Shown in pieces: positions 33,225 to 60,623 of a stretch of 64,000 nt of DNA. Position 1 is the stretch's first letter. Every line of letters starts with the position of its first letter. The DNA comes from Geodermatophilus sabuli (GTDB lineage: Bacteria > Actinomycetota > Actinomycetes > Mycobacteriales > Geodermatophilaceae): positions 279,305 through 343,304 of the forward strand of contig NZ_OBDO01000003.1 of NCBI RefSeq assembly GCF_900215145.1. The letters are read 5' to 3'. Both the position numbers and the translations under genes were made by a program. The notes beneath the pieces were generated by a model. It saw nothing but the letters and a program-made list of their open reading frames with translations. It did not search any database and had not been told where the DNA came from.

Positions 33225-33505
33225 TCACCGGAACTCGTGGGTCAGGCTGTCCATGGTGCGGTTCACCGAGGCGACCTTGATGTGGGACAGCCCGCCGGTC
33301 GCGCCGGCCGCCAGCATCGCCTCGTGCGCGGCGCGCAGCGTGGCCCACACCTCGTCGGCCTCGCCCTCCAGCGTCGCCCCGAGGGCGCCGACCTCGTACC
33401 GCAGCCCCGAGGCCTGGATGACGGCCCCGTCCCGAGGCTCGCGCCGAGCGTGCGAGGCGTGGGGAGGACGGGGTCCTTCTACTGGATCTCGGCGATCACG
33501 CTCAC
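33225..33505 (-). pseudogene. DUF77 (thiamine-binding/MTH1187-like) gene broken by a repeat
   Basis: GTG 33505 overlaps the dxs stop by 4 bp and encodes MSVIAEIQ, the family N-terminus, then TAG at 33479-33481. From about 33430 to 33225 the opposite end of the same family is intact in one frame: AVIQASGLRYEVGALGATLE, EADEVWATLRAAHEAMLAAG, then LSHIKVASVN and MDSLTHEFR. Between them is a copy (33423-33481) of the hairpin repeat found at four other places here. About 20 codons have been replaced. Family members (YqgV-like) are about 95 residues and bind thiamine or its relatives. Confidence 0.8.
33423..33481 (-). repeat. Hairpin repeat, copy B (inside DUF77 gene)
   Basis: On the minus strand it begins TAGAAGGACCCCGTCC, contains CTCGCACGCTCG and ends GGGACGGGGCC. 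GCCCCGTCC and GGACGGGG form the outer stem. The same elements, AAGGAC-CC, CGCTCGCACGCTCG and a GC stem, recur in copies A, C and D; copy E has only the outer stem. Confidence 0.65.
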
Positions 33506-35415
33506 GGCGTCTCCTCGACGACCTCCGTCACACGCCCCTCGGCGCGCTCGGCGACCACCGCGGTCCACTCGGCGATCCGTCGGGCGACGTCCTGCTCGGT
33601 GAGGCCGACGTCGGCCAGCACCTGGCCACGGCTGCCGTGCTCCAGGAACTCCTGCGGCAACCCGAGGGTCCGCACCGGTACGTCGCAGGCGCGGTCCTGC
33701 AGCGCCTGGGTCAGCGTGGTGCCGACACCGCCGGCGCGGCCGCCGTCCTCGACGGTGACCACCAGCCGGTGCCCGGCCGCGAGCTCCACCAGCTCCGGCG
33801 CGACCGGCAGCACCCAGCGCGGGTCGACGACGGTGACCTCGATGCCGTGGTCGGCGGCGCGCTCGGCGGCGGACAGGCACATCGGCACCACCGACCCGAC
33901 GGCGACGAGCAGCACCTCCGCCCGGACCCCGCGGCGCAGCACGTCGACCGGGCCGCGCCGCTCCAGCGCCGGGATGTCGACCGGCGGCGCGCCCTTCGGG
34001 AAGCGGACGACGGTCGGCCCGTCGATCACCGCGACCGCCTCGCGCAGCGCCTCGCGCAGGGTCGGCTCGTCGCGCGGCGCCGCCAGCCGCAGGCCGGGGA
34101 CGACCGACAGGATCGACATGTCCCACATGCCGTTGTGCGAGGCGCCGTCGGTGCCGGTCACCCCGGCACGGTCCAGGACGACGGTCACCGGCTGACGGTG
34201 CAGCGCGACGTCCATCAGCAGTTGGTCGAAGGCGCGGTTGAGGAAGGTCGAGTAGACGGCGACCACCGGGTGCAGGCCGCCCATCGCCAGGCCCGCCGCC
34301 GAGGTGAGCGCGTGCTGCTCGGCGATCCCCACGTCGAAGGTCCGCTCCGGGAACCGCTCGGCGAACGCGGCCAGCCCGGTCGGGTGCAGCATGGCCGCGG
34401 TGATCGCGACGACGTCGGAGCGCTCGGCGCCGATGCGCACCAGCTCGTCGGAGAACGCGGCGGTCCAGTCGCGGGCCACCGCGGCGCTGGCCCCGCTGTC
34501 GGGGTCGAACACGCCGGTGGCGTGCCAGGCGTCGATCTGGTCGGTCTCGGCCGGCGGGTAGCCGAAGCCCTTGGTGGTGACGGCGTGCACGATCACCGGG
34601 CCACCGAAGGAGCGGGCGCGGCGCAGCGCGGACTCCATCACCTCGGTGTCGTGGCCGTCGACCGGGCCGATGTACTTGAGCCCGAGGTCCTCGAACATCC
34701 CCTGCGGCGACAGGACGTCCTTGAGCCCCTTCTTGATCGCGTGCAGCGCGTCGTAGAGCGCCGACCCGAGGACCGGCGCCCGGTGCAGCGCCTGGCGGAC
34801 CTGCAGCAGCGCCTGCTCGTACCCCGGCCGCAACCGCAGGGTGGCCAGCGCGTCGGCGACGCCGCCGATGGTCGGCGAGTATGAGCGGCCGTTGTCGTTG
34901 ACCACGATGACCACCGGCCGGTCGTGGGCGGTGGCGATGTTGTTCAGCGCCTCCCAGGCCATGCCGCCGGTCAGCGCGCCGTCACCGATGACGGCGACGA
35001 CCGGCCGCTTCTCCCCGCGGACGGCGAAGGCCTTGGCCAGCCCGTCGGCGTAGGACAGCGAGGTGGAGGCGTGGCTGTTCTCGACCCAGTCGTGCTCGCT
35101 CTCCGCACGGCTGGGGTAGCCGGACAGGCCGCCGCGCTGGCGCAGCCGCTCGAAGCCCTCCACCCGACCGGTGAGCATCTTGTGCACGTAGCTCTGGTGT
35201 CCGGTGTCGAAGAGGATCGGCTCGTGCGGGGAGTCGAAGACCCGGTGCAGGGCGATGGTGAGCTCGACGGCCCCCAGGTTGGGGCCCAGGTGACCGCCGG
35301 TGCGGGCCACGCTGGTGACGAGGGCGTCGCGGATCTCGGCAGCGAGGGCCGGGAGCTGATCGGCGGGCAGCGCCCTCAGGTCGGCGGGGCTGCGGAGCGA
35401 TCGCAGGAGCGACAC
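33502..35415 (-). CDS. dxs: 1-deoxy-D-xylulose-5-phosphate synthase
   Basis: 637 residues, normal for the family. Thiamine diphosphate-binding motif [20 protein letters not shown] through [27 protein letters not shown] with the catalytic His near the N-terminus; the pyrimidine domain has [21 protein letters not shown] and transketolase C-terminal [12 protein letters not shown]. It condenses pyruvate and glyceraldehyde 3-phosphate, the first step of the MEP isoprenoid pathway. ATG 35415. Followed with a 4-bp overlap by the damaged thiamine-binding-type gene. Confidence 0.97.
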
Positions 35416-35611
35416 GAGTCGGAGGTGTCCTCTCTGACGGCGGCAGGTGCACGGCTCGGCAGCGGCCGCCGATCAACTGTAACCGCGTCCGTCCGGGTCT
35501 TCCGGTCGAGCGCTGGGTTTCACAGTTGGCCCCGGCCCGCTCCCCCGCGCGCCGGGCCGGTCCGTGACAGCGCCCCCACGAGCGCCCCGGTCGGCTCCTG
35601 CGGGGGCCCGC

Positions 35612-35980
35612 TCACAGCCGGGGGACCCAGCGCTCGCCGCGCAGCGCACCACCGACCACCTCGACGCCGCGCGCCGCGGCCGCCAGGCGGGCACCCTCGC
35701 GCTCGTATGCGGTGATCGCCGCCGTCATCGCGTCGGCGGGCAGCTCGTCGGCCAGCTCGACCCGCACCGTCCGCCACCCCGCCCGCGCGGCCTCGAGGCC
35801 GGCCCGCACGTGGTCACGGGCGAAGCGGGCGAGCAGCACCGGGTATCGACGCAGCACCTCGTGGGCGCGGTAGTCCGGCGGGACGAGGTCGAACAGCCAC
35901 GCGACGGCGCTCTGCTCCCAGTCCGGGGAACCGGGCGGGGGCACCGCGTCCGGCCAGCCCGGGGGCAGCGTCGCGTCCAC
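35612..35980 (-). CDS. Uncharacterised 122-residue protein behind a LexA box
   Basis: 122 residues from GTG 35980. Conserved-looking segment WEQSAVAWLFDLVPPDYRAH, then RRYPVLLARFARDHVRAGLE and a mixed alpha/beta end with GVEVVGGALRGERWVPRL. No family recognised, although related actinobacterial hypotheticals share the PPDYR and RRYPVLLARFA pattern in my recollection. A consensus SOS box lies 24-38 bp upstream, so it may be DNA-damage-induced. Soluble, no membrane segment. Confidence 0.7.
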   Translation of the reverse strand: MDATLPPGWPDAVPPPGSPDWEQSAVAWLFDLVPPDYRAHEVLRRYPVLLARFARDHVRAGLEAARAGWRTVRVELADELPADAMTAAITAYEREGARLAAAARGVEVVGGALRGERWVPRL

Positions 35981-36002
35981 CCCACCAGTCTGCCGCACCC
36001 GC

Positions 36003-36017
36003 CGAACACACGTTCGA
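36003..36017. promoter_or_regulatory. Consensus actinobacterial LexA (SOS) box
   Basis: CGAACACACGTTCGA matches the Gram-positive/actinobacterial LexA site GAAC-N4-GTTC with the flanking CG..CG. It ends 37 bp and begins 23 bp upstream of GTG 35980 on the minus strand, exactly where a promoter would be. No other such site was noticed in the window. Confidence 0.65.
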
Positions 36018-36051
36018 CGGCGCGCCCTGGTCGTCGCGCGGGAGGGCGCCC

Positions 36052-36291
36052 TCAGCCCGACGTCGGCCGCTTGAGCCAGAACTGCTCGAACCCCCAGGTG
36101 CCCGCGCCGCTGGAGTGGTAGCTGACCAGCTCCCACCCCTCGGCTCCGAGCCGGTTGAGCACCGAGCTGGTGTCCCCGCTCTGCCGCTCCAGCGAGCCGC
36201 CGGGGAGCTTCACGCTCACCCCTGCCCGCTGTGACTCGGCGTCGTTGGCCGTGATGACCGAGGCGTACTCCCAGGTGGTCACGGGGAGCAC
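36052..36291 (-). CDS. DUF4177-like small protein
   Basis: 79 residues. The N-terminal TTWEYASVITAND and the LNRLGAEGWELVSYHS motif are those of DUF4177, a family of short, soluble proteins of unknown role. The C-terminal strand is WGFEQFWLKRP. ATG 36291; GTG at 36279 is another option. It lies divergent from the secreted protein gene. Confidence 0.8.
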   Translation of the reverse strand: MLPVTTWEYASVITANDAESQRAGVSVKLPGGSLERQSGDTSSVLNRLGAEGWELVSYHSSGAGTWGFEQFWLKRPTSG

Positions 36292-36388
36292 GGTAACCGA
36301 CCCCCCGGTGCGGCCCCGGAGAGCGCTGGAGTGATCTGGATCCGGACCCTTCCGTCACCCACCCCGTTCGGGCTAACGTGACGCACAG

Positions 36389-36444
36389 CGCTGGATCAAC
36401 TCCATTCGGTGTTGGGAGTCCAGCGGCCGGGTCGGCTCGACCCG
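36389..36444 (+). other. Structured leader of the secreted protein gene
   Basis: Two stem-loops upstream of ATG 36486: CGCTGGA/TCCAGCG enclosing CAAC/GTTG (36389-36425) and CGGGTCG-GCT-CGACCCG (36428-36444). They could form a structured 5' untranslated region. No known riboswitch consensus was matched by eye. Confidence 0.4.
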
Positions 36445-36485
36445 CAGCCAGCTGTCGACCACCCGCCGAGGGGATCCCTGTCCGC

Positions 36486-37436
36486 ATGCCCGCCTTCCGC
36501 CGGGGCCCGTCTGACCTGACTCGCTCATACGGCGCGATGGGACGTCCACGCACCGCCACGATCATCGGGGCCCTGGCGATCGTCGGCGTCGTCGCCGGCA
36601 GCGGAGCCCTCGTGCTCGACGACCCCGCGGACGGCGCGGCGCGGACCCCGGAGGTCAGCGCCACGGCGAGCCCGCTCCCGACCAACGACCGCGGCATCGG
36701 TCACGCCTCGCGGGCGGCCGTGCCGCACTCCTCGGCGCTGGTGACGCCCACTCCCGCGCCGCAGACCACCCCCGCGACGCCGTCAGAGACGCCCGCGCCC
36801 ACCACGAGGGCCACCACCGCGGCCCCGAGCACCCCGGCGCCGGTCCCGGCTCCGGCTCCGGCTCCGGCTCCGAATCCGAAGCCGACACCCTCGACGACCC
36901 GGTCCACCCCGGCGCCGGCCCCCGCGCCCGCTCCGGAGCCGGCCCCTGCCCCGGCGCCGCCGGGCACCGGGGAGCGCGAGATCCAGGCCTACATGACCGG
37001 CTACTCGTACTTCGACAACGCCCCGGCCGGCAGCCCGAGCACCTCCCACCCGATCGTCCACCGGCAGGCCGGCGGCACCGGCACGTACGAGGACCCGATC
37101 ACCGTCGCGGTCGGGCACTCGGAGGCCGGCGGCCAGGACACCCTCGACTGGGCTGCGGGCACCCGCTTCTACGTCCCGGCGATGAGCCGTTACCTGATCG
37201 TCGAGGACACCTGCGGTGACGGCGCCGCGCCGCAGAACGGCGCCTGCCACACCGGCTACCCCTCCTCGGCGTCGACATGGCTGCACGTGTGGGTCGACGG
37301 CCGGGACGCCGGCTCGTCGTCCACCGACTCCTGCCTGGGCCGCCTCACCGGCGTGCGCACGGTGATCGTCAACGCCGGTCCCGGCCACCCGGTCGACGCC
37401 GGCCCGATCGCCTCCGGCGGCGGCTGCGCCCTCTGA
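36486..37436 (+). CDS. Secreted Pro/Ala-rich protein with barrel-like C-terminal domain
   Basis: 316 residues. A membrane or signal segment at about 22-42 (TATIIGALAIVGVVAGSGAL), a Thr/Pro/Ala-rich spacer at about 80-160 made of PAPA repeats, then a compact domain starting EIQAYMTGYSYFDNAPAGS. In that domain, RFYVPAMSRYLIVEDTCGDG with CHTGY, TWLHVWVDGRD and a final CLGRLTG resemble double-psi beta-barrel wall or expansin/RlpA-like proteins. Four Cys probably form disulfides. It is likely anchored in or released through the membrane and acts in the wall; activity unknown. ATG 36486 is the best start. Confidence 0.8.
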   Translation: MPAFRRGPSDLTRSYGAMGRPRTATIIGALAIVGVVAGSGALVLDDPADGAARTPEVSATASPLPTNDRGIGHASRAAVPHSSALVTPTPAPQTTPATPSETPAPTTRATTAAPSTPAPVPAPAPAPAPNPKPTPSTTRSTPAPAPAPAPEPAPAPAPPGTGEREIQAYMTGYSYFDNAPAGSPSTSHPIVHRQAGGTGTYEDPITVAVGHSEAGGQDTLDWAAGTRFYVPAMSRYLIVEDTCGDGAAPQNGACHTGYPSSASTWLHVWVDGRDAGSSSTDSCLGRLTGVRTVIVNAGPGHPVDAGPIASGGGCAL

Positions 37437-37581
37437 GCCGTCGCCCCGAGGCACTCGCCCGACGCAGCCGGGCTGCGGACCGCCGAGCAGTCCGGCGAGA
37501 TCGAGGCCGTCGTGCGCCTTCGCCACGCGGCCGGTGGTCAGCGCCCAGCCGGCACTCGCGACCACGCTGCCCGTCACGGGG

Positions 37582-38922
37582 TCACCGCGCGGCGCTCCCG
37601 TACGGCTGTCTCCCTGCCGTGTCCTGGACGAGCAGGGCCACGCACTCCACGTGCGCGGTCATGGGGAAGGCGTCGAACCCGCGGACGGCCTCCAGCCGGT
37701 ACCCCGCCGTCCCGAGGACGGCGACGTCACGGGCGAGGGACGCCGGGTCGCAGGCGACGTAGACCACCGCACGCGGGCCGGCGCCGGCCAGCACGCGGCT
37801 CACCGCCGGGCCGGCACCGGCCCGCGGCGGGTCCAGGACGACGACGTCCGGAGGCGTGCCGAGCTCGTCGATCAGGTCGGCCAGCCCCTCGGCGTCCACC
37901 TCGCCCTGCCAGACCTCCGCCTGCGGCAGGTCGGCCAGGTTGGCCTCGGCCGCGGCGCACGCCGCCGGGTCGGCCTCGACACACACGACCCGGCCACCCG
38001 TTCCGACGCCGGGGGCGAGCGCGCCACCGAACAGCCCCGCGCCGGCGTAGAGGTCGAGCACCGTCTCCCCCGGACCGACGGCGGCGAACCCCTCGACGGC
38101 GGACACGAGGGCGTCGGCCGCCGCGGGGTGCACCTGCCAGAAGCCGGTGCCCTCGACCTCCCAGTCGCGGCCGGCGGCCGTCCGGGCGGCCCGGCCGTCC
38201 GGTTGGGCGGGCCCGTCCTCCCCGGGGCGCAGCACGCGGGTCGTCTGCGGCCGGCCCTGCCGGTCCAGGCGGGTGGTGGTCACGGTGCCGTTCGAGTCGA
38301 CGGCGACGTCCACCGCCCCGGCGCCCGGCCACCGGCGCCCCAGCACCGCACGGGCCGCGGGCTCGACGGTGATCGGGCAGTCGTCCAGCAGCACCACGTC
38401 GTGGGAGCGGTGCCGGCGCAGCCCGGGCGCCCCGGACCGGTCGACGGCGAAGCGGGCCCGGGAACGCCAGCGCAGCGGGCCGCCGGGGAGCTCCTCGACC
38501 ACCACGTCGACGTCCAGGCCGGCCAGCCGGAGGAGCTGCTCCCGGACCACGGCCGCCTTCAGCCGGTGCTGCTCGGCCGGCGTCGCGTGCTGCCAGTCGC
38601 AGCCGCCGCACCGGCCCGGCCCGCTGTACGGGCAGGGCCGCTCGACCCGCTCCGGCGACGGGGTCAGCACCTCGATCGCGTCGGCGCGGCAGAAGCCGGG
38701 GTGGCGGTCCTCGGTGACCCGGACGACGACGCGCTCGCCGGGCAGCGTGTGCCGCACGAAGACCACCCGTCCCTCGTGCCGGGCCACACAGTGCCCGCCG
38801 TGCGCGACCGGCCCGACGGTCACCTCGAACTCCAGGCCGGTCCACCCACCCCCGCGGTCCGGGCGTCCGGGGCGGGCGGTGCGACCCGGTCGCCCGCCGC
38901 CGCGTCGTCCGCGCTCAGCCAC
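37582..38922 (-). CDS. TrmA/RlmCD-type class I SAM-dependent RNA methyltransferase
   Basis: 446 residues from GTG 38922, which follows AGGAGG. N-terminal TRAM domain (FEVTVGPVAHGGHCVARH and FVRHTLPGERVVVRV), Fe-S cysteines CPYSGPGRCGGCDWQH, SAM motif VLDLYAGAGLFGGALA and the catalytic Cys in YVACDPASLARD, followed by the family end FPMTAHVECVALL. It methylates C5 of a uridine in tRNA or rRNA. Overlapping order with the permease gene matches Rv2689c-Rv2690c. The exact target is not predictable. Confidence 0.92.
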   Translation of the reverse strand: MAERGRRGGGRPGRTARPGRPDRGGGWTGLEFEVTVGPVAHGGHCVARHEGRVVFVRHTLPGERVVVRVTEDRHPGFCRADAIEVLTPSPERVERPCPYSGPGRCGGCDWQHATPAEQHRLKAAVVREQLLRLAGLDVDVVVEELPGGPLRWRSRARFAVDRSGAPGLRRHRSHDVVLLDDCPITVEPAARAVLGRRWPGAGAVDVAVDSNGTVTTTRLDRQGRPQTTRVLRPGEDGPAQPDGRAARTAAGRDWEVEGTGFWQVHPAAADALVSAVEGFAAVGPGETVLDLYAGAGLFGGALAPGVGTGGRVVCVEADPAACAAAEANLADLPQAEVWQGEVDAEGLADLIDELGTPPDVVVLDPPRAGAGPAVSRVLAGAGPRAVVYVACDPASLARDVAVLGTAGYRLEAVRGFDAFPMTAHVECVALLVQDTAGRQPYGSAAR

Positions 38923-38957
38923 AGCGGTCCTCCTGCCGGCCACGTCGTCGGGCTCCC

Positions 38958-40997
38958 TCAGCCATACGGGGTCGCCTCCGCCTCGTCGGTGGTCAGTCCG
39001 CGCCGCAGGTCCCCGGGCGCCGGCCCCCCGCCGCGGCCGTCGTCGTCCCGCCCCACCGAGCTCTCCAGCTGCCAGGGCACGGTGGTGATCATGACCCCGG
39101 GCTGGAACTGCAGCCGGGCGCGCAGCCGCAGCGCGCTCTGGTTGTGCAGCACGTTCTCCCACCAGCGGCCGACGACGTACTGCGGCACGAAGACCACGAC
39201 CAGCTCCCGCGGGCTGTCCCGGCGGATCCCCTTGACGAAGTCGAGCACCGGCCGGGTGATCTCCCGGTAGGGCGACTCCAGCACGGTCAGCGGAACGGGG
39301 ATGTCGTACTTCTCCCACTGCGCCTGCAGTGCCCGCGTCTCGGCGTCGTCGACGTTGACGGTGAGCGCGGTGAGCACGTCGGGGCGGGTGGCCCGGGCGA
39401 AGGCCAGCGCCCGCAGCGTCGGCTTGTGGACCTTGGAGACCAGCACGATCGCGTGCACCTTGCTGGGCAGCGTCCGGGAGTCGGTGTCGGGCACCAACTG
39501 CTCCGCGACGTGGGAGTAGTGCCGGTTGATGGCCTTCATCAGCAGGAAGAGCACCGGCATCACCAGCAGGACCAGCCAGGCGCCCCGGGTGAACTTGGTG
39601 ACCACGATGATCACCAGGACGACGCTGGTGAGCGAACCGCCGACGGTGTTGATCGCCTGCGAGCGGCGGATCCGCCGTCGTGCGTCCGCGTCCTCCGTCG
39701 TCTGCAGCTGGCGGTTCCAGTGCCGCACCATGCCCCACTGGCCGATGGAGAAGCTGGTGAAGACGCCGACGATGTACATCTGGATGAGCCGGTTGACGTC
39801 CGCGTCGAACGCGAACAGCAGCAGCGCAGCGAAGCCCGCCAGCAGCAGGATGCCGTTGCTGTAGACGAGCTTGTCACCGCGGGTGTGCAGCTGACGCGGC
39901 ATGAACCGGTCCTGCGCCAGCACCGAGCCCAGCAGCGGGAAGCCGTTGAACGCGGTGTTCGCGGCGAGGACCAGGACCAGCGCGGTCGCCGCCTGGATGG
40001 CGAAGAACAGCGGCGAGGTGTCACCGCCGAACGTGGCTGCGGCCAGCTGCGCGATGACGGTCCGCTGCGGCTCGGTGTCGCAGTCGGCGAAGCCCTGGAG
40101 GTCGCAGGCGTCCTCCACGTACTTGACGTCGGCGGCCAGTGCAAGCGCGGTAACACCGGAGAACAGGACCGCGGCGATCCCGCCCATGAGCGCCAGCGTG
40201 GTGGCGGCGTTGCGGCTCTTCGGCGGCTTGAACGCCGGGACGCCGTTGGCGATCGCCTCCACCCCGGTCAGCGCCGTGCAGCCGGAGGCGAAGGCGCGCA
40301 GCGCGAAGAAGAGCAGTGCCAGCCCGCCGAGCTGCTCGAAGCCGGGCTCCGGCGTGACGGTGTAGCCGGCCGTCTCGGCGACCACCGGGGAGTCGGTGAA
40401 CAGGTCCCGCACGAGGCCGGTGACGATCATCACCAGGATGCCGGTGATGAACAGGTAGGTCGGCAGGGCGAAGGTGCGGCCGGACTCCCGCAGCCCGCGC
40501 AGGTTGGCCGCGGCCAGCAGCGCGACGAGACCCACCGCGATGAGCACCCGGTGCTGGTTGAGCCCGGGGAACGCGGAGATGATGTTGTCGGTGCCGGCCG
40601 CGACCGACACCGCGACGGTCAGCACGTAGTCCACGAGCAGCGCGCTGGCCACGGTCAGGCCGGCGAACTGGCCGTGGTTCTTGAACGCCACCTCGTAGTC
40701 CCCGCCGCCGGACGGGTAGGCGCGGACCACCTGCCGGTACGAGAGCACCACGGTCGCCAGCAGCAGCACGACGGCGATGGCCAGCCACGGCGCCAGGAAG
40801 AGGAAGGCGGTGCCGGCCAGCGTCAGCACGATGAGGATCTCCTGGGTGGCGTAGGCCACGGAGGAGAGCGGGTCGCTGGCGAAGATCGGGAGGGCGAGCC
40901 GCTTGGGCAGCAGCGACTCACCGGCGCGGTCGCTGCGGACGGCACGGCCGAGGAGCAGCCGTTTCGGGAGTTGTCCGAGGTCGGACAGGGTCGGCAC
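38958..40997 (-). CDS. APC-superfamily amino acid/cation permease
   Basis: 679 residues from GTG 40997. About 12 membrane helices in the first 480 residues, starting LPIFASDPLSSVAYATQEIL (the conserved first helix of this DUF-like APC group), then a 190-residue cytoplasmic C-terminal domain (AIVLVSKVHKPTLRALAFAR to the end) that resembles a universal-stress/ligand-binding fold. The equivalent Rv2690c sits next to ceoB and ceoC; here too it is divergent from ceoB with a 162-bp spacer. Potassium or amino-acid transport under CeoB/CeoC control is plausible. Confidence 0.88.
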   Translation of the reverse strand: MPTLSDLGQLPKRLLLGRAVRSDRAGESLLPKRLALPIFASDPLSSVAYATQEILIVLTLAGTAFLFLAPWLAIAVVLLLATVVLSYRQVVRAYPSGGGDYEVAFKNHGQFAGLTVASALLVDYVLTVAVSVAAGTDNIISAFPGLNQHRVLIAVGLVALLAAANLRGLRESGRTFALPTYLFITGILVMIVTGLVRDLFTDSPVVAETAGYTVTPEPGFEQLGGLALLFFALRAFASGCTALTGVEAIANGVPAFKPPKSRNAATTLALMGGIAAVLFSGVTALALAADVKYVEDACDLQGFADCDTEPQRTVIAQLAAATFGGDTSPLFFAIQAATALVLVLAANTAFNGFPLLGSVLAQDRFMPRQLHTRGDKLVYSNGILLLAGFAALLLFAFDADVNRLIQMYIVGVFTSFSIGQWGMVRHWNRQLQTTEDADARRRIRRSQAINTVGGSLTSVVLVIIVVTKFTRGAWLVLLVMPVLFLLMKAINRHYSHVAEQLVPDTDSRTLPSKVHAIVLVSKVHKPTLRALAFARATRPDVLTALTVNVDDAETRALQAQWEKYDIPVPLTVLESPYREITRPVLDFVKGIRRDSPRELVVVFVPQYVVGRWWENVLHNQSALRLRARLQFQPGVMITTVPWQLESSVGRDDDGRGGGPAPGDLRRGLTTDEAEATPYG

Positions 40998-41159
40998 GGC
41001 GGCGATCGTACGGACGCCGGGACGGCCCACGCCCCCGCCGGGAGGGTGAGTTGCAGCGCGTGGACGGCGTCGAGCGGCACCCCCGGGTGTAGCTTCGCGG
41101 CCGGGCAGCGCGGGCGGTCGGCGCCGGCGCACCGGGACCATCGAGCGGAGAGTCCACCA

Positions 41160-42496: not shown

Positions 42497-42532
42497 CGCC
42501 CACGCCCGCAGGGACCGGGTCGGGGTCCTCCC

Positions 42533-45295: not shown

Positions 45296-45296
45296 G

Positions 45297-45810: not shown

Positions 45811-45872
45811 TAAGGACCCTCTTGCCCCCCACCGCTCACGAGCTCGCGGCGGGCCCCTGCGAGGGGGTCAGG
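45811..45872 (+). repeat. Hairpin repeat, copy C
   Basis: Begins TAAGGACCCTCTTGCCCC, contains CACCGCTCACGAGCTCGC and ends GCCCCTGCGAGGGG. It lies between the start of dut and the stop of the 300-residue gene upstream. Same design as copies A, B and D. Confidence 0.6.
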
Positions 45873-46835: not shown

Positions 46836-46846
46836 AGGCCGGACGG

Positions 46847-46894
46847 CGCCCCTCCCGCCGCGAGCGTCGAGCGGTGGGGGCAGGGTGTCCTTCT
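46847..46894 (-). repeat. Hairpin repeat, copy D
   Basis: On the minus strand it follows the DUF4193 stop directly: AGAAGGACACCCTGCCCC, then CACCGCTCGACGCTCGC and GGCGGGAGGGGCGC. Same elements as copies A and C. Confidence 0.6.
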
Positions 46895-48609: not shown

Positions 48610-48690
48610 GTGAGCGAGCCGGCGAGCTCACGCGGCCGCACAGCAGCGCCGCGGACGCGGCCGACGAGCGCCGGCGAGGAGAGCCAGTGA
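48610..48690 (+). other. Possible leader peptide reading into cei
   Basis: GTG 48610 after GAGGGGG opens a 26-residue frame, MSEPASSRGRTAAPRTRPTS then AGEESQ, whose TGA overlaps the GTG of cei at 48687. It may be a translated leader or a repeat-like insertion rather than a true peptide. The GTGAGC start and AGGAGAGCC end resemble the leader at 22730-22810. Confidence 0.35.
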
Positions 48691-49235: not shown

Positions 49236-49254
49236 GCGGACGCACCGGCCCGGC

Positions 49255-50070: not shown

Positions 50071-50129
50071 GGCGCCGATCCTGCCCGAGCGGGCCTGCCC
50101 CCTGCGGCGCCGGTCACTACCCTGACCGC

Positions 50130-51178: not shown

Positions 51179-52537
<1,359 letters not shown>

Positions 52538-52540
52538 CAG

Positions 52541-52590
52541 CGGACCCCCTGCCCCACCGCTCGCACGCTCGCGGCGGGGCTCTGCAGGGG
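52541..52590 (+). repeat. Hairpin repeat, copy A
   Basis: Begins CGGACCCCCTGCCCC three bases after the sigA stop, contains CACCGCTCGCACGCTCGC and ends GGGGCTCTGCAGGGG. Best-preserved copy of the family; its arms are CCCC-CCGC against GCGG-GGGG. Confidence 0.65.
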
Positions 52591-52592
52591 AG

Positions 52593-52634
52593 GACGGAGG
52601 CCCCCTGAGCGTCTCCGCTCAGGGGGCCTCCGTC
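52593..52634. terminator. Perfect 19-bp hairpin between sigA and acyl-CoA dehydrogenase
   Basis: Arms at 52593-52611 and 52616-52634 (GACGGAGGCCCCCTGAGCG and its complement) form a perfect 19-bp stem with loop TCTC. It lies 55 bp past the sigA stop and 17 bp from the end of the convergent gene, so it probably terminates both. Confidence 0.85.
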
Positions 52635-52651
52635 GTCCCGGCCCCGCCCGC

Positions 52652-54073: not shown

Positions 54074-54639
54074 ACGGGGGGCTCTCCTCACGAGACGGAA
54101 CTCCCGGCCGACCGCGACGGCGACCGGTGGCACGGGGCCGAGGTGCGACCCGGAGGACCCTGTGCCGTTCATCACCCTCGTGCGCCCGATCTCCACGTCG
54201 GAAGGGACCAACGTCTCCTCCCGCGCCGTGGCCTCGCCGGGACAGCCGGGGCCGTCGTTCCAGGCGCGTTGCGGCCGACGACTGCTCCGTGACGGTCGCG
54301 TCTCGGGATGGTCACGATCTCACCCCGATGAGCCGGTGGGGCGGTGTGAGCCGTCACCGTCCGGGTAAGCGGCGTAGCGTGGGGGACGTCAAGACAGCAG
54401 CGGACCCACCAAGCCGGACCACGACCGGCGCACGGAACTGACGACGACGAGCACCACGACCACAGACCTGCACGACCCAGTGACGTCCCTGCTGACCCGC
54501 CCCACCCGACTCAACGGCCCCGGACACACCGTCTACGGCGAGTCCACCGTTCGATCGGCAGGATCGGGAACAGAGGGGTTCATCCTGGCGCTGTGCAGGA
54601 GGCCGATCCGCAGCCGCGGGTCCGTGCGGTAGAGAGCGA
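54074..54639. other. 566-bp region without a certain gene
   Basis: No clear gene. On the plus strand a frame with no ATG/GTG start before 54478 reads DPVTSLLTRPTRLNGPGHTV, YGESTVRSAGSGTEGFILAL and on to a stop at about 54631; it has coding-like composition. It may be a short gene starting at a CTG near 54440 or GTG 54480, or a remnant. Confidence 0.35.
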
Positions 54640-54867
54640 GTGATGACCCAGATGACCCAGACGCTGACGACGACCCCGCCCGCCGACGACCTGGTCGTCC
54701 CCTTCCACTGTGACCGCTGTGGTGCGCTGGCCAAGGTGCGGGTCGTCCTCGCCAGCGGCAGTGACCTCGTGTTCTGCGGGCACCACGCCCGTGAGTACGA
54801 GGGCAAGCTGCGCGACATCGCCGTCGACATCATCGACACCGATGGCGAGCAGCGCATCACCTCCTGA
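54640..54867 (+). CDS. DUF7455 small zinc-ribbon protein
   Basis: 75 residues from GTG 54640 or ATG 54643. A short Thr-rich N-terminus, then the zinc-ribbon VPFHCDRCGALAKVRVVLAS with CDRC, and FCGHHAREYEGKLRD with a second Cys/His pair. Conserved in actinobacteria near sigma factor genes. Its function is unknown; it is probably an accessory nucleic-acid- or RNA-polymerase-binding protein. Confidence 0.85.
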   Translation: MMTQMTQTLTTTPPADDLVVPFHCDRCGALAKVRVVLASGSDLVFCGHHAREYEGKLRDIAVDIIDTDGEQRITS

Positions 54868-55011
54868 CCGAGGGGGTTATCGTCGCTGACAGCGATGAAG
54901 CCCTCACCCGACGCCGCCGCCGGCGTTCCGGATCCGCCTGAGGCGGACGGGACGCCGGCGGCTCCGTCGTTCCCGGGATCCCCCGGTCGACGGCGACCCG
55001 GAGATCCCCCG

Positions 55012-57291
55012 ATGCCCCAGTCCCCCACCCCGCAGGACGAGACCGCCCGGATCGAACCCGAGGTCTTCTCCGACGACACCCGTCCGGTGCCGCGCGACCG
55101 CGGTCCCGTGGGACCGGAGACCGCCCACCCTCCGGCGGCCGCACCCGCGGCCACCCCCGAGGCCCCCGCCGCCGCGGCCGAGCCGGCGCCTCCCGCCGCC
55201 CCCGTCGAGGACGGCGAGACCCAGGACATCCGCTTCGCCCCGGGCGAGGCACCCGGGCAGGCCCGGCCGCCGGCCGCCGGCCCGGCGGACACGGCCGCGG
55301 CGAGCGCCACCTCCGCGAGCGCCACCTCGGCGACCGGCGTCCCCCCGACGGGGGCGGCGGAGCCAGGAACGGGTCCCGCCGCGGAGCGGGACGGCACCGC
55401 CCCGTCCGGCGACGGCTCCGGCACGCCTCCGGGCGTCGGCCCGGCCGACGGCCCCGGCAACGGCGCCGGAGGGGAACCACCGGCCGCGGACGCGCCACCG
55501 CGCCGCCCCTGGTGGCGCCGTCCGGCCCTCGTCACCCCCGTCGCGGCCGTCGGCGTGCTGGCGGCCGCGTACGGCATCGACCTGCTCACCTCCAGCGGCG
55601 ACGTGCCCCGGAACACCGTCGTGGCCGGCGTCGACATCGGGGGGCTCTCCACCGCTGCCGCGAGCGAGCGGCTGCAGACCGAGCTCGCCCCGCGGGTCAC
55701 CGCCGACCACGTGGTCGTGGCCGACGACGTGGAGGCGACCCTCTCCCCCGCCACCGCCGGCATCACCCTCGATGTCGACGGCACGGTGGACGCCGCGGAC
55801 GACCAGCCGCTGAACCCGTGGAGCCGGCTCGCGACGCTGTTCGGCGAGCGCGAGGTGGCCCCGGTGATCACCGGCGAGGAGACCGCGCTGGCCGCGCAGA
55901 TCGACGCGATCGCCGAGCAGGTCGACCGGGCACCGGTCGACGCCTCGATCGCCGTCGAGGGCGCCGAGGCGCGCATCGTCGAGCCGGAGGACGGCCGCAC
56001 GCTGGACCGCGCCGGCGCCGCCGACGCGGTCACCGCCGCGCTGGCCTCCGGCGGGGACCCGTCCACACCGATCGAGCTGCCGGTCGACGTCACCGAGGTG
56101 GTGGTCGACGCCGCGGAGGCCCAGCGGGTCCTCGACACCACGGTGACCCCGGGCCTGGCCGCGCCGGTCACCGTGTCCAGCGAGGACGGCGCGACGTCGG
56201 TCGAGATCCCGCCGACCGCGATCGCCGCCTCGCTCACCTTCACGCCGCAGGAGAGCGGCGATCTCTCCGTCGCCGTCGACCCCGCCCGGCTGCAGGAGGC
56301 CATGGGCGACGACTTCGCCGAGTTCGGGACCCCCGCCCAGGACGCCCGGTTCGAGCTGTCCGGGAGCGCGGTCAGCATCGTCCCCTCGGTGGACGGCACG
56401 GGGGTCGACCCGGCCGCGCTCGCCGGTCAGCTGCTCGAGGTGCTCCCGCAGCCCGCGCCGCGCACGGTGACCGCGCAGCTGGGCGCGGTCGAGGCCGAGT
56501 TCAGCACCGCCGACGCGGAGGCGCTGGGCATCCGCGAGCAGATCAGCACCTTCACCACGAACTTCACCAGCGCCGCCAGCGGCACCAACATCCGGGTGGG
56601 CGCCGCGGAGATCGACGGCGCGATCGTCCGGCCCGGCGAGACGTTCAGCCTGAACGGCCACACCGGCCCGCGCGGCACGGCCCAGGGCTACGTCGAGGCC
56701 GGCGTCATCAACAACGGCCAGTTCACGACCGCCGTCGGCGGCGGCATGAGCCAGGTCGCCACGACGCTGTTCAACGCCGTCTTCTTCGCCGGGCTCGAGG
56801 ACGTCTACCACAAGCCGCACAGCTACTACATCAGCCGCTACCCGGCCGGTCGCGAGGCGACGGTCTACTACGACTCGATCGACCTGGAGTTCCGCAACGA
56901 CAGCAGCACCGGCGTCTACATCGACACCCAGTGGACGCCGAGCTCCCTGACGGTCAGCTTCTACGGGACCAAGCGGTACGACATCGAGTCGATCAGCAGC
57001 AACCGGTACAACCAGCGCCAGCCGGTGGTCCAGGAGAAGCCGGATGACGGCAGCTGCAGCCCGCAGGGCGGCTCGACCGGGTTCGACATCACCGTCACCC
57101 GCGTGTTCAAGGACCCGCAGAGCGGGGCGGAGATCCGTCGCGAGGACTTCCGGACGCGGTACGCCGCCGAGCCGGTCATCCGCTGCGTCCCCGTGGCACC
57201 GGCGCCTCCCGCGCCCGGCCCGGAGGGCACCGTGCCGGCCCCGGCGCCGGCACCGGGTGGCCGCCGGCCGTCCCGGCGGACGGCGGCCTGA
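55012..57291 (+). CDS. VanW family protein with peptidoglycan-binding-4 repeats
   Basis: About 759 residues from ATG 55012 (GGAG 8 bp upstream); an in-frame ATG at 54895 would add 39 residues. A long Pro/Ala-rich cytoplasmic part (to about 160), a membrane helix (PALVTPVAAVGVLAAAYGID), three or so PG_binding_4-like repeats (VVAGVDIGGLSTAAASERL starts the first), then VanW: FSLNGHTGPRGTAQGYVEAG with GGGMSQVATTLFNAVFFAG and a Cys-containing end. It is an extracytoplasmic wall protein; VanW itself has no proven activity. Confidence 0.88.
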   Translation: MPQSPTPQDETARIEPEVFSDDTRPVPRDRGPVGPETAHPPAAAPAATPEAPAAAAEPAPPAAPVEDGETQDIRFAPGEAPGQARPPAAGPADTAAASATSASATSATGVPPTGAAEPGTGPAAERDGTAPSGDGSGTPPGVGPADGPGNGAGGEPPAADAPPRRPWWRRPALVTPVAAVGVLAAAYGIDLLTSSGDVPRNTVVAGVDIGGLSTAAASERLQTELAPRVTADHVVVADDVEATLSPATAGITLDVDGTVDAADDQPLNPWSRLATLFGEREVAPVITGEETALAAQIDAIAEQVDRAPVDASIAVEGAEARIVEPEDGRTLDRAGAADAVTAALASGGDPSTPIELPVDVTEVVVDAAEAQRVLDTTVTPGLAAPVTVSSEDGATSVEIPPTAIAASLTFTPQESGDLSVAVDPARLQEAMGDDFAEFGTPAQDARFELSGSAVSIVPSVDGTGVDPAALAGQLLEVLPQPAPRTVTAQLGAVEAEFSTADAEALGIREQISTFTTNFTSAASGTNIRVGAAEIDGAIVRPGETFSLNGHTGPRGTAQGYVEAGVINNGQFTTAVGGGMSQVATTLFNAVFFAGLEDVYHKPHSYYISRYPAGREATVYYDSIDLEFRNDSSTGVYIDTQWTPSSLTVSFYGTKRYDIESISSNRYNQRQPVVQEKPDDGSCSPQGGSTGFDITVTRVFKDPQSGAEIRREDFRTRYAAEPVIRCVPVAPAPPAPGPEGTVPAPAPAPGGRRPSRRTAA

Positions 57292-57371
57292 CCGCTCGCC
57301 CGATCGGGGGAGGTCTGGCCGGGTGACCCCGTCCGGACCCCTCCCGCGCCGCTGACGTGCACACTGGGCCG

Positions 57372-58433
57372 GTGAGCACCGTCCTGCCCGGGGGGTCACC
57401 GGCCCCCGCGGAGAGCGGCCCGGACGGTGCCGACGACGACTTCGCGACCGCCGCGGCGCTCCCGGCTCAGGCGCCCCCGCGGGGACGGCTGCACCGGTGG
57501 CCCGCGCCGGTGCGGGTGCCGCTGCAGGTCCTCGGCCGCACCCTCGCCAAGGCCTGGCAGGACCGCATCCTCGGGCTGTCGGCGGAGGCGGCGTTCTGGC
57601 AGATCCTGTCGGTGCCGCCGCTGCTGATCGGGTTGCTCGGCTCCCTCGGCTACCTGGGCAGTTTCATCGGCGGTGCATCCGTGGCCCGGATCGAGGACCA
57701 GCTGCTCACCGCCTCCGCCGAGGCGCTCACGCCCGACGTCGTCGACTCCCTCGTCCGGCCCACCCTCGCCGACATCCTCGGCTCCGGCCGGCTCGATCTG
57801 ATGAGCGTCGGCTTCGTGCTGTCGCTGTGGGCCGGCTCCTCGGCGACCGCGACGTTCATGAACACGATCGTGATCGCCTACGACCAGCGCGACGTCCGAG
57901 GGCCGATCCGCACCCGCCTCAAGGCGCTGTGGCTGTTCGTCATCGGCCTGGTGATGGCGGTGATCACACTGCCGCTGCTCGTGCTGGGCCGCGAGGTGAT
58001 CGTCTCGCTGCTGCCCGTGGTCTGGCGGGGAACGGCGACCGTCCTGGTCGACGCCGTCTACTGGCCGGTGGTGCTCGTCGGCCTGGTCCTGGCGCTGACG
58101 AGCTTCTACCACGTCGTCCTGCCGCGCCGGCTGCCGTGGCGACGACACCTGCCGGGGACCGGGCTCGCGGTGGCGTTCTTCCTGGTGGCCGCACTGCTGC
58201 TGCGCGCCTACGTGTCCGACATCCTCACCGCGACGCTGCCCTACGGTGCGCTGGCCACCCCGATCGCGGCCCTGCTGTTCTGCTTCTTCTTCGGCATGGC
58301 GGTGCTGCTGGGCGCCGAGCTCAACGCCACCATCCAGGCCCGCTGGCCCGCGCCGCTGCGCCGCCACCAGCGGCGGCGGCAGGAGCGCCGGGCCGCCAAG
58401 CTCGAGCGCGCCCGGCGCCTGGACCTGCTCTAG
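57372..58433 (+). CDS. YihY/BrkB-type membrane protein
   Basis: 353 residues from GTG 57372. Six membrane helices of the YihY/UPF0761 family: LSAEAAFWQILSVPPLLIGL, MSVGFVLSLWAGSSATATFM, FVIGLVMAVITLPLLVLGRE, PVVLVGLVLALTSFYHVVLP, GTGLAVAFFLVAALLLRAYV and the final AALLFCFFFGMAVLLGAELN. N-terminus disordered, C-terminus very basic. Role unknown; the old label ribonuclease BN is wrong for this family. Confidence 0.9.
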   Translation: MSTVLPGGSPAPAESGPDGADDDFATAAALPAQAPPRGRLHRWPAPVRVPLQVLGRTLAKAWQDRILGLSAEAAFWQILSVPPLLIGLLGSLGYLGSFIGGASVARIEDQLLTASAEALTPDVVDSLVRPTLADILGSGRLDLMSVGFVLSLWAGSSATATFMNTIVIAYDQRDVRGPIRTRLKALWLFVIGLVMAVITLPLLVLGREVIVSLLPVVWRGTATVLVDAVYWPVVLVGLVLALTSFYHVVLPRRLPWRRHLPGTGLAVAFFLVAALLLRAYVSDILTATLPYGALATPIAALLFCFFFGMAVLLGAELNATIQARWPAPLRRHQRRRQERRAAKLERARRLDLL

Positions 58434-58437
58434 TCGT

Positions 58438-58668
58438 TCACTCCTTGCGGAGCTGCTCGTAGACCTCCTTGCACGCCGGGCACACCGGGCTGCCGGGCTT
58501 GGGGGTCTTGGTCACCGGGAAGACCTCGCCGCAGAGGGCCTCGACCATGGTGCCCATGACCGCGCTCTCGGCGATCTTGTTCTTCCGGACGTAGTGGAAG
58601 ACCTCGTTGGCGTTGCCGGTGTCGCCCTCGCGGACGTCGGGCTTCTCGAGCAGGTCGGTGTTGCTCAC
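58438..58668 (-). CDS. DUF3039 family protein
   Basis: 76 residues, ATG 58668. The DUF3039 core is GNANEVFHYVRKNKIAESAV and MVEALCGEVFPVTKTPKPGS, ending CPACKEVYEQLRKE: a Cys, then CPxC, which may bind zinc. Function unknown; conserved in actinobacteria. Convergent with the YihY gene, 4 bp apart, and divergent from psuG. Confidence 0.9.
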   Translation of the reverse strand: MSNTDLLEKPDVREGDTGNANEVFHYVRKNKIAESAVMGTMVEALCGEVFPVTKTPKPGSPVCPACKEVYEQLRKE

Positions 58669-58763
58669 GCGGTGCTCCCTCAGGTCACGGGACGGCTGAC
58701 CGGGGCGTTCCCGGCCACCGGGGCGGAGCCGGGCACGACCACCCCGCCCACCATGATGTCAGG

Positions 58764-59711
58764 GTGTCCGCCGCCGCCCCGCTGCCCGCCGTCCCCACGT
58801 CCCCCGGGATGTCCATCTCCCCGGAGGTGTGCGAGGCGCTCGCCGCCGGCCGTCCGGTCGTGGCGCTCGAGAGCACCCTGCTGGCGCACGGGCTGCCCCG
58901 GCCGGACAACCGGGCCGCCGCCGACGAGGTGGAGGCCGCCGTCCGGGTCGGGGGCGCGGTGCCCGCGACGATCGCCGTCCTGGACGGCGTCCCGCACGTC
59001 GGGCTGACCGCCGACGAGGTGGACCGGGTGTGCGCCGACCCGGATCTCGCCAAGCTCGGCGTCCGCGACCTGCCGGTGGCCGCGGCGCTCGGCCTCAGCG
59101 GCGCGACCACCGTGTCCAGCACCGCGCTGCTCGCCGCCCGCGCCGGCATCGGGGTCTTCGCCACGGGCGGCCTCGGCGGGGTGCACCGGCAGTCCGCGGA
59201 CACCTTCGACGAGTCCGCCGACCTGGTCGCGCTGGCCCGCACCTCCCTGGTCGTCGTCTGCGCCGGGGTGAAGTCGATCCTCGACGTCCCGGCCACCCTG
59301 GAGCGGCTGGAGAGCCTGTCGGTGACCGTGGTCGGCTACCGGACGACGACCTTCCCCGGCTTCTACGTCGCCGACTCCGGCTCGACGGTGGACTGGTCGG
59401 TGGACGACGCGGCGCAGGCGGCCGCGGTGTTCGCCGCCCGCCGCGACCTCGTGCCGGGCGCGGTGGTCGTGGCCAACCCGCTGCCGACCGGCGAGCAGTT
59501 GGACCCCGCCCTGCACGACCGGGTGATCGCGGGCGCGCTCGCCGCGGCGGAGGACGCCGGGGTGCGCGGCAAGGCGGTCACCCCCTTCGTCCTCGACCAC
59601 CTGCACCGGGCCAGCGAGGGCGCCACCCTGGCGGTCAACGTGCGGCTGGTGCTGCGCAATGCCGAGCTGGCCGGGCAGATCGCGGCCGCGCTGGCCGCGC
59701 TCCCCCGCTGA
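58764..59711 (+). CDS. psuG: Pseudouridine-5'-phosphate glycosidase
   Basis: 315 residues from GTG 58764. The indigoidine-synthase-A-like fold shows VALESTLLAHGLPRPDN with the Glu, GGVHRQSADTFDESADL, VVCAGVKSILDVPATLERLE with the catalytic Lys, and GYRTTTFPGFYVADSGS. It splits pseudouridine 5'-phosphate into uracil and ribose 5-phosphate. A PfkB-type kinase follows 8 bp later, which fits the phosphorylation step before it. Confidence 0.93.
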   Translation: MSAAAPLPAVPTSPGMSISPEVCEALAAGRPVVALESTLLAHGLPRPDNRAAADEVEAAVRVGGAVPATIAVLDGVPHVGLTADEVDRVCADPDLAKLGVRDLPVAAALGLSGATTVSSTALLAARAGIGVFATGGLGGVHRQSADTFDESADLVALARTSLVVVCAGVKSILDVPATLERLESLSVTVVGYRTTTFPGFYVADSGSTVDWSVDDAAQAAAVFAARRDLVPGAVVVANPLPTGEQLDPALHDRVIAGALAAAEDAGVRGKAVTPFVLDHLHRASEGATLAVNVRLVLRNAELAGQIAAALAALPR

Positions 59712-59719
59712 GCCGCGCG

Positions 59720-60595
59720 GTGCGACCGGTCGTCGTCGTCGGGGACCTCGCCACCGACGTCGTGGTGGTGCTCGCCGGCGAACCGGCGCCCGGATCGGAC
59801 CGGCCGGCCCGGATCACCACCCGTGGCGGCGGCGCCGGGGCCAACGTCGCCGTCCACCTGGCCGCCCTCGGGGCGCCGGTGGTGTTCGCCGGTTGCACGG
59901 GGGACGACGCCGCCGGTGCCGGGCTGGTCGCCGAGCTCGTGGCCGCGGGGGTGACGCCGGCCGTGCGGGCGGTGCCCGGGGCCGCGACCGGCACGATCGT
60001 CAGCCTGGTCGAGCCGGACGGGCAGCGCAGCATGCTGGCCGACCGGGGCGCGAACCTGGCGCTGCTGCCTGCCGACGTCCCGCCCCTGCGGGCCGGTGGG
60101 CACCTGCACCTGTCCGGGTACACGCTGCTGGACCCGCGGCCACGCGACGCCGGCCTGGCCGCGTTGGCCGCCGCGGCCGAGGCCGGCTGCACCGTGTCGG
60201 TGGATCCCGCCTCGACCGGTCCCCTCGCCCGCTACGGCGTGCAGCGGTGGCTGGCCGACACGGCGGCGGCCACGCTCGTGCTGCCGAACGCGGAGGAGGC
60301 GCGGCTGCTCACCGGCTGCTCCGATCCGGCGACCGCGGCCCGCGCGCTCGCCGTCCGGCACCCGGTCGCGGTGGTGACCCTGGGCGCCGACGGCGCGCTG
60401 TGGGCCGCCGGCGACACGCTCGTGCACCGACCGGCCCACCCCGCGCCGGTCGTGGACACCACCGGCGCCGGGGACGCCTTCGCCGCGGGGCTGCTCTCGG
60501 TCTGGCTGGCCGATCCCGCCGGGGACCCGGCGCGGGCGCTGGATGCGGGCGTGGCCCGGGCCGCGGCCGTCGTCGCCCGCCCGGGGGCGCGCTGA
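59720..60595 (+). CDS. PfkB-family carbohydrate kinase, probable pseudouridine kinase
   Basis: 291 residues from GTG 59720. Ribokinase fold: GDLATDVVVVLAGEPAPGS and TTRGGGAGANVAVHLAALGA at the N-terminus (PfkB motif 1), and VVDTTGAGDAFAAGLLSVWL (motif 2, with the catalytic Asp of GAGDAF). It phosphorylates a sugar or nucleoside at its 5' hydroxyl. Its position after psuG suggests it makes pseudouridine 5'-phosphate for the glycosidase (psuK role), an inference from neighbours. Confidence 0.88.
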   Translation: MRPVVVVGDLATDVVVVLAGEPAPGSDRPARITTRGGGAGANVAVHLAALGAPVVFAGCTGDDAAGAGLVAELVAAGVTPAVRAVPGAATGTIVSLVEPDGQRSMLADRGANLALLPADVPPLRAGGHLHLSGYTLLDPRPRDAGLAALAAAAEAGCTVSVDPASTGPLARYGVQRWLADTAAATLVLPNAEEARLLTGCSDPATAARALAVRHPVAVVTLGADGALWAAGDTLVHRPAHPAPVVDTTGAGDAFAAGLLSVWLADPAGDPARALDAGVARAAAVVARPGAR

Positions 60596-60623
60596 GGCCC
60601 CCTACAGGGGCAGGGGGTCCTTC
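60596..60623 (-). repeat. Hairpin repeat, copy E (short form)
   Basis: On the minus strand the DUF3099 stop is followed by GAAGGACCCCCTGCCCC and then TGTAGGGGGCC. It has the outer part of the family but lacks the CGCTCGCACGCTCG core. CCCCCT/AGGGGG pairs around 8 nt, so it can terminate the two convergent genes. Confidence 0.6.

Follow-up and report, generated by a model that had tools for sequence, protein, structure and literature searches.

Short REP-like DNA hairpins, probably mobile and nearly confined to the Geodermatophilaceae

INTRODUCTION

Geodermatophilus sabuli belongs to the Geodermatophilaceae, a family of soil bacteria. In a 64,000-nucleotide stretch of its genome (the window), similar GC-rich hairpin sequences recur at unrelated genes, which raises the question of what these sequences are and how they came to be there. 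A preliminary description of the window counted five copies, likened them to REP or MITE elements that may double as terminators, and held that no element of this kind had been described in these bacteria. The last statement agrees with our own search, as no such element was found in the accessible text of the open-access literature, and no Rfam family matched the 64-kb window at its gathering score. From the comparisons below, the copies are probably mobile DNA hairpins, short and non-autonomous, that form one family found almost exclusively in the Geodermatophilaceae.

RESULTS

A covariance model was built from 31 copies, including the one at 33423 and none of the other five in the window, and was run on the window without filters. 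Family members were found at all five places listed in the preliminary description (30.7–75.9 bits), and a sixth, which it had missed, lies at 19701–19760 on the minus strand (52.9 bits); the next best match scored 16.4 bits. This sixth copy is a diverged subtype B hairpin at the 3′ end of the gene 19759–20409(−), as delimited by a simple gene caller. The highest score belongs to a subtype B hairpin at 33423–33478 (minus strand, 75.9 bits), which lies inside a thiamine-binding-protein gene and leaves, on translation, a left piece of eight codons followed by TAG (33479–33505, minus strand) and a right piece with a 65-codon open frame (33225–33422, minus strand); an intact relative (L208) matches PF01910. 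A subtype A hairpin at 45812–45869 (plus strand, 59.6 bits) is antisense and just upstream of the dUTPase gene, and a degenerate subtype A copy, damaged on its 3′ side, is found 2 nt behind the stop codon of the DUF4193 gene (46845–46892, minus strand, 32.3 bits). Just behind the sigA stop (TGA, 52535–52537) is another subtype A hairpin, at 52539–52591 (plus strand, 48.5 bits over 52546–52590), and a loop-less remnant (60596–60622, minus strand, 30.7 bits) lies between convergent genes assigned by Pfam to the pfkB family and DUF3099. That one copy lies inside a gene is thus true for 33423, while the copy at 45812 overlaps merely a mechanically over-extended dUTPase open reading frame, because the sequence conserved among relatives ahead of the gene begins after the element.

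In the repeat unit, an imperfect hairpin of 56 nt, which occurs in the two subtypes A and B, is preceded by a loose tag (G-N-N-G) and an unpaired AA dinucleotide. The basal stem, GG(A)CCCC.../...GGGGCC, has a bulged A, the upper stem frequently has A opposite C, and the loop is close to TCGCANGCTC. Both the bulged A and the GNNG-AA 5′ tag are conserved among copies. G occupies positions −4 and −1 in 22 of the 42 copies classed as "other" (5.7 expected) and in 12 of the 20 nested copies (1.9 expected), while at stop-adjacent copies the tag overlaps the TGA itself and is therefore not independent evidence; GTAG or GTGG serves as the tag in 5/42, 3/20 and 3/78 copies.

The copies form one covarying hairpin. 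Both sides had changed in 7 of 17 pairs among 31 copies and in 11 of 17 among 105 distinct copies, a score reached by none of 500 shuffles, with an alignment that had been fitted to the model. It is this covariation across copies that carries the argument for a hairpin, since folding of single copies adds little: in eight foldings, the window copies barely did better than their own shuffles (z from 0.05 to −2.04). Departures from pairing, read on the sense strand, were of the A.C type in 49 cases and of the G.T type in 13, which leans toward pairing at the DNA level, with the reservation that 18 of the 49 come from one single pair and that the sense strand may mutate unevenly.

A genome-wide search with the covariance model gave, instead of less than a handful of hits, at least 149 matches in G. 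sabuli among the best 150 of 15978 candidates scored, and the density of matches leads to an estimate of about 300 copies. The genome holds 25 matches to the 5′ motif of subtype A, 15 of them exact and 10 with a single mismatch, and 61 to that of subtype B (up to two mismatches), against two for the reversed-pattern control in each case. Matches were present in 48 of 57 Geodermatophilaceae genomes, with the best 99 candidates scored per genome. In an order-level sample of 248 genomes, with 22 candidates scored in each, they were present in 46 genomes of the Geodermatophilaceae and two of other families, and 180 of the genomes with no match may include Geodermatophilaceae. The family is thus nearly confined to the Geodermatophilaceae. 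Copy number, for which the per-genome counts are lower bounds, ranges within one genus from 1 to at least 150, and some genomes of the family hold many near-equal top-scoring copies. The small advantage of single copies over their shuffles in folding would suit a chance likeness among GC-rich terminator hairpins, an explanation that the preliminary description had itself raised; the pattern and model controls, the covariation (7/17 and 11/17 pairs) and the near-confinement to one family refute it, and we consider it virtually impossible.

The positions of the copies relative to genes were evaluated in two sets, using genes called by a simple in-house program based on codon usage. The named-locus set comprised the best 109 of 137 matches (the edge match L158 and 27 weaker ones were left out), and the own-genome set comprised 37 copies (L001–L085, placed at the match by regular expression, with duplicates merged and L022 left out). 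Sense copies began 0–3 nt after a stop codon in 44/109 and 20/37 cases, respectively, compared with 1.0% for random intergenic positions. Copies overlapping stops (11/109 and 3/37) were counted separately, as coding positions are left out of the null, and only 6 of all 146 copies were inside a called gene. Both orientations occur, as the preliminary description had it, but this wording hides an order, since 77 of 101 copies have the orientation of the upstream gene (eight edge cases of the 109 set aside). Neighbouring copies within 200 nt formed 12 same-orientation and 3 inverted pairs, so that 12 of 15 were head-to-tail. There were 17 strict cases of copies nested within copies (two of them, at locus L191, have their outermost copy in common), and in 16 the break was 18–30 nt from the outer 5′ end, in a search that by construction sees only insertions between the basal arms. 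Flank complementarity, evaluated for 108 of the 109 copies, was noticed for the 36 that are neither stop-adjacent nor nested (mean −22.3 kcal/mol versus −20.1 permuted, sd 0.61; six fell under the 5% level of the permutations). Since the 56 stop-adjacent and 16 nested copies lack it, it was rejected as a rule for target choice in general, and with the signal limited to the remaining copies a general taste for hairpin loops is weakly supported.

Comparison of orthologous sites in the genus pointed to mobility. Among 26 genomes compared by eye at the thiamine-binding-protein gene, four carry the element, 17 are uninterrupted over the stretch shown and five lack the gene or have it degraded; two of the uninterrupted genes were confirmed as full open reading frames. 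As read from these alignments, the hairpin at 33423 is shown to have replaced about 60 nt of coding sequence, and from this replacement, set against uninterrupted relatives, we infer that the family is or was mobile. The four interrupted genes may represent one shared event. By eye, the element was present in 10 of 24 alignable loci at the dUTPase site, and the element or a remnant of it in 22 of 25 at the DUF4193 gene end (L282 and L287 doubtful) and in 11 of 25 at sigA (G069, with a paralogue only, left out). Presence and absence at these three sites could be explained by loss, and the persistence of several orthologous copies across species could mean function.

At the DUF4193 gene end, 16 of 25 genomes pass an arm test requiring at least 7 of the 9 arm positions to be paired, and they do so with 12 different arms. 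The arms paired at 8.38 of 9 positions within a genome versus 5.70 across genomes and 5.85 when shuffled, the best partner in L272 and L273 probably being an inner arm. That most genomes of the genus keep the pairing here while the arms change is what would be expected of a structured 3′-UTR RNA element (ribosome-stalling, mRNA-protecting or transcript-end) selected at gene ends and rarely copied. The sense orientation and the seat 0–3 nt behind stop codons fit it as well, as does the reduced translation reported, in the accessible part of the source, for REPs up to 15 nt from a stop (PMC12306157). Nevertheless, the same gene lacks the element in other species, the element breaks the thiamine-binding-protein gene and nests in itself, G.U states are scarce, and one species has a single copy while a congener has at least 150. 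Therefore, we regard such an RNA element as rather unlikely to be the explanation.

A role in termination found no support as far as intrinsic terminators are concerned. None of 109 copies was followed by a T-run, defined as at least four T within 9 nt downstream of the sense 3′ end; on the opposite strand, 9 of 109 had one. At sigA, an inverted repeat that resembles a terminator and is distinct from the element was seen by eye behind it or in genomes without it. The element is not a classical intrinsic terminator, though it may have some effect on termination.

The preliminary description had proposed looking for a REP-associated transposase. The profile for Y1/RAYT transposases (PF01797) matched in none of the 57 genomes of the family and in 5 of 14 controls. 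The tag, the unpaired dinucleotide, the bulged hairpin and the seat at gene 3′ ends resemble GTAG REPs as far as these are set out in the accessible text of PMC3733652, and would suit a true GTAG REP whose RAYT has since been lost or falls outside PF01797. This is quite improbable, as the profile is missing from 57/57 genomes, some with many near-equal top copies, and pairs are head-to-tail rather than inverted. Reverse transcriptase (PF00078), present in 28 of the 57 genomes including the low-copy G039, was absent from G000, G004, G015, G030, G041, G046 and G051, each with at least 98 matches; it was rejected as the mover, as it showed no link with copy number over the 57 genomes.

A MITE derives from an insertion sequence by internal deletion, keeps terminal inverted repeats and is moved by a DDE transposase; such an origin would account for short, non-coding, numerous copies with partly inverted ends. 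However, complementarity spans most of the unit and covaries, and in the one clear comparison of filled and empty sites, at the thiamine-binding-protein gene, the target was lost, not duplicated. One own-genome tandem has a repeated 36-nt flank. An arm-pair search over the collected loci, judged by eye, gave only nested copies and chance pairings and no persuasive candidate for a longer parent element whose arms are separated. We hold a MITE to be about as doubtful as a true GTAG REP.

DISCUSSION

The likeness to REP or MITE elements drawn in the preliminary description is supported in kind: the repeats are hairpins in high copy number, nearly all intergenic, and mobile. We call the element a new REP-like variant, built like a GTAG-tagged REP. 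For a mobile DNA hairpin of this kind, a folded single strand would be recognised through its bulge, mismatch and tag by a putative recombinase, and insertion would join after a G with a small loss of target DNA. Most surviving insertions would be those behind stop codons or within older copies, and either DNA arm correction or selection, or the two together, would keep the stems paired; arm correction of stems has been proposed for template switching in the accessible text of PMC8794818. We suggest, tentatively and as a possibility well short of even, that the family spreads without a dedicated transposase, either when replication switches template from one folded hairpin to another or by means of an enzyme, of host or mobile origin, that is new to short hairpin repeats. 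Template switching during replication would also explain the nesting in the upper part, the loss of target DNA and the constant re-pairing of the stems.

The question of what moves transposase-less REPs can now be tested by comparing low- and high-copy species of one genus. The stop-adjacent seat offers hundreds of natural insertions with which to probe termination, ribosome release and operon coupling, and the 12 arm sequences found behind a single gene, DUF4193, form a natural experiment that can set RNA selection against DNA arm correction as the source of paired stem changes.

Among known systems, intrinsic terminators share the GC-rich hairpin after a stop codon, but the present element differs in having no T-run, in its homologous sequence at unrelated genes and in the separate repeat at sigA. 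The mycobacterial MIRUs are short actinobacterial repeats at overlaps of TGA stops and starts, with tandem units and TGA duplications; we know of no hairpin in them of the kind found here. The CGTC-tagged REPs are, in the accessible text of PMC3733652, likewise hairpin repeats reported without a dedicated transposase, but with their own tag, stems of 8–9 bp, inverted dimers and a distribution mostly in alpha-Proteobacteria. Most reports of GTAG and CGTC REPs, according to the same source, concern gamma- and alpha-Proteobacteria, and the GTAG type is linked to RAYT transposases. As far as the available descriptions go (PMC2817692, PMC3116915, PMC3733652), the GTAG REPs and REPINs with RAYT share with our element a broadly similar tag, the unpaired dinucleotide, the imperfect hairpin, the high copy number, the seat at gene 3′ ends with a tag that lends stop codons, and some intragenic copies. 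They are 20–40 nt long, compared with 56 nt here, and REPINs and BIMEs form inverted pairs, whereas our copies are head-to-tail and nested. The element also differs in its loose GNNG tag, with GTAG or GTGG in few copies, in the target DNA lost at one site and in the absence of a Y1 transposase from 57 genomes, so that this family-wide, high-copy and evidently mobile relative presents the hairpin parted from its known mover.

Family membership and hairpin structure

The five places that the preliminary description had assigned to a single repeat family do belong together. A covariance model derived from 31 copies recovered all of them and gave six matches in the window at 30.7–75.9 bits (next best, 16.4 bits), the sixth being a previously unlisted copy at 19701–19760. 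Two main subtypes, A (AAGGACCCCCTGCCCC...GCAGGGGGCC) and B (AAGGACCCCGTCCTCCCC...GGACGGGGCC), have common ends and unlike stems, and their motifs matched the window's own genome 25 and 61 times, respectively, against 2 in each control. The genome-wide model search that had been proposed for the family returned at least 149 matches at E 0.01, a floor because the best 150 of 15978 candidates were scored. Contig C14 of this genome has 22 model matches within 400 kb and, if it is typical, about 300 copies are extrapolated for the whole genome.

Some repeats are arranged in rows: five copies spaced by ~67 nt lie at C14:253073–253397, and at C13:61345–61492 (loci L033/L034) a 36-nt flank plus element occurs twice in tandem, with a further flank repeat. 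The window also contains a 71-nt direct repeat (7756–7826 and 13589–13659, 90% identical) that has no relation to the hairpin family, and a short GGCTCC-type tandem repeat at 36808–36959.

In the 31 copies, 94.5% of 524 alignment cells were paired, with change on both sides in 7 of 17 pairs; in 105 distinct copies from named genomes, the values were 94.9% of 1759 cells and 11 of 17 pairs. The covariation score of the latter, in an alignment fitted to the model, was reached by none of 500 shuffles, while copies taken singly folded barely better than their own shuffles. A bulged A is kept (GGAC at positions 3–6 in 96 of the 105 copies), and in the upper stem an A faces a C in 21 of the 31. On the sense strand, deviations from pairing were of the G.T type in 13 cases and of the A.C type in 49, 18 of the latter supplied by one pair. 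A sense RNA that tolerated G-U would be expected to show the opposite bias, so the evidence leans weakly towards a structure acting at the DNA level. By eye, three loci (L118:1–95, L139:3140–3240 and L153) have the element inside an unrelated inverted repeat, in its loop.

Distribution among relatives

An exact-pattern scan of named genomes matched at least 118 stretches. Of those listed, 107 are from Geodermatophilus, Blastococcus, Modestobacter or Geodermatophilaceae, one (L107) is from a 'Frankiales bacterium' MAG, and 10 are unrelated (L102, L122, L140, L145, L150, L162, L171, L181, L197 and L198); in a model search covering the first 80 stretches, none of the six unrelated ones among them gave a match. 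Model matches were present in 48 of 57 whole Geodermatophilaceae genomes, the other nine being fragmented assemblies of genera g5, g8 and g10. Among 248 genomes of the order, matches occurred in 46 Geodermatophilaceae and two genomes of other families; 200 had none, and the 20 of these that were listed all belong to other families. Genomes G121 (two matches) and G130 (one) gave strong matches outside Geodermatophilaceae (E about 3e-11), for which transfer or contamination is possible.

Copy number varies inside one genus, from 1 (G019) to at least 150 (G011), and likewise from 5 (G039) to 110 (G049) in a second intra-genus contrast; further values are 5 (G003), 13 (G036) and more than 150 (G041 and G015). 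Many copies in G041, of the window's genus, are near-equal in top score (84–85 bits), suggesting a recent burst.

Placement, 5' tag and nesting

Many copies are seated at stop codons. Of 109 named copies, 44 lie 0–3 nt past a same-strand stop and a further 11 overlap it; for copies in the window's own genome the figures are 20 and 3 of 37, while 1.0% of 3594 random intergenic positions fell at 0–3 nt. Orientation is that of the upstream gene in 77 of the 101 copies with both neighbours called, and divergent gaps hold only 5 of the 101, though they make up 23% of the counted intergenic bases. This seat probably reflects survival bias and not true targeting. Some of the copies at L264–L288 (DUF4193 site), L235, L243–L245 (sigA site) and L070 have a 16-nt GTTCCAGNACGTCACC-like tail behind the hairpin, sometimes with right-half-only repeats after it; by class, it was found in 9/80 stop-adjacent, 0/21 nested and 0/43 other copies.

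Directly 5' of AAGG is a G-N-N-G tag. Among 78 stop-adjacent copies, 39 have G at both -4 and -1 (10.2 expected from base composition); among 20 nested copies the number is 12 (1.9 expected), and among 42 others it is 22 (5.7 expected). In an offset scan, every remaining offset of the 'other' class was ≤7; offsets 4 and 8 of the stop-adjacent class were likewise high (22 and 20) and coding-sequence-like, and TGA usually supplies the G at -4 there. The hairpin would join after a G.

Copies also lie within copies, in 17 strict cases whose outer arms still pair at ≥8 of 9 positions. The break is 18–30 nt from the outer 5' end in 16 of them, and in 15 the outer parts sum to 42–54 nt, a few to 14 short of 56. 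By eye, the inner copy of L183 is antisense. Copies less than 200 nt apart have the same orientation in 12 instances versus 3 opposite.

Evidence for mobility from orthologous sites

The gene for a thiamine-binding protein (PF01910), behind DXP synthase, is uninterrupted over the stretch seen in 17 of 26 genomes of the genus (verified as full ORFs in L207 and L208), and absent or degraded in 5. In the remaining four (L204, L205, L206 and L215, own genome included), a hairpin takes the place of ~60 nt of coding sequence. In the window, the left piece runs for 8 codons to its stop and the right piece remains an open frame. Loss of the element cannot explain this pattern: the hairpin stands where coding sequence was, and its deletion would leave the gene incomplete. 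One event may account for all four loci.

At the other sites, judged by eye, an element or remnant was found at 11 of 25 sigA 3' ends (none recognisable at 14) and at 22 of 25 DUF4193 3' ends (missing in L276, L279 and L285), and upstream of dUTPase an antisense element abutting the shared TAGGGTCGC-like sequence was present in 10 of 24 alignable loci (L288 was not located). These three patterns could be losses.

Among the 16 of 25 loci that passed the arm test at the end of the DUF4193 gene, 12 distinct 5' arms are represented; for L272 and L273 the partner identified is probably an inner arm. Within one genome the arms paired at 8.38 of 9 positions, compared with 5.70 across genomes (≥8 in 15/230) and 5.85 with shuffled downstream sequence. 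Such stem turnover may come from compensatory change, replacement by new copies, or correction of the arms in DNA, which PMC8794818 proposes for template switching.

Mover and comparison with known REPs

A REP-associated transposase, whose presence the preliminary description had left to be checked, was not found: PF01797 (Y1, covering RAYT and IS200/IS605) was detected in none of the 57 Geodermatophilaceae genomes, and in 5 of 14 controls, including E. coli. Reverse transcriptase (PF00078) was absent from the own genome and from six further genomes of the genus, each with at least 98 hairpin matches; it occurs in the low-copy G039. These two enzyme families, which the search covered, gave no candidate; a putative mover would recognise the folded strand.

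No published description of the family was found in the open-access literature, including the accessible parts of PMC3035280, PMC9686282 and PMC12306157. As described in PMC3733652 and PMC2817692, GTAG REPs have a tag, an unpaired dinucleotide, a bulged hairpin, a place at gene 3' ends and a tag-supplied stop codon, all of which the Geodermatophilaceae hairpin has; it departs from them in its length and tag, in having no RAYT and in the loss of target DNA. REPINs are inverted pairs (PMC3116915), whereas these hairpins are mostly head-to-tail and nested. By analogy, the family is taken to work like a REP but is not classed as a GTAG/RAYT REP. CGTC REPs likewise have no dedicated transposase, so REPs that lack a RAYT have a precedent.
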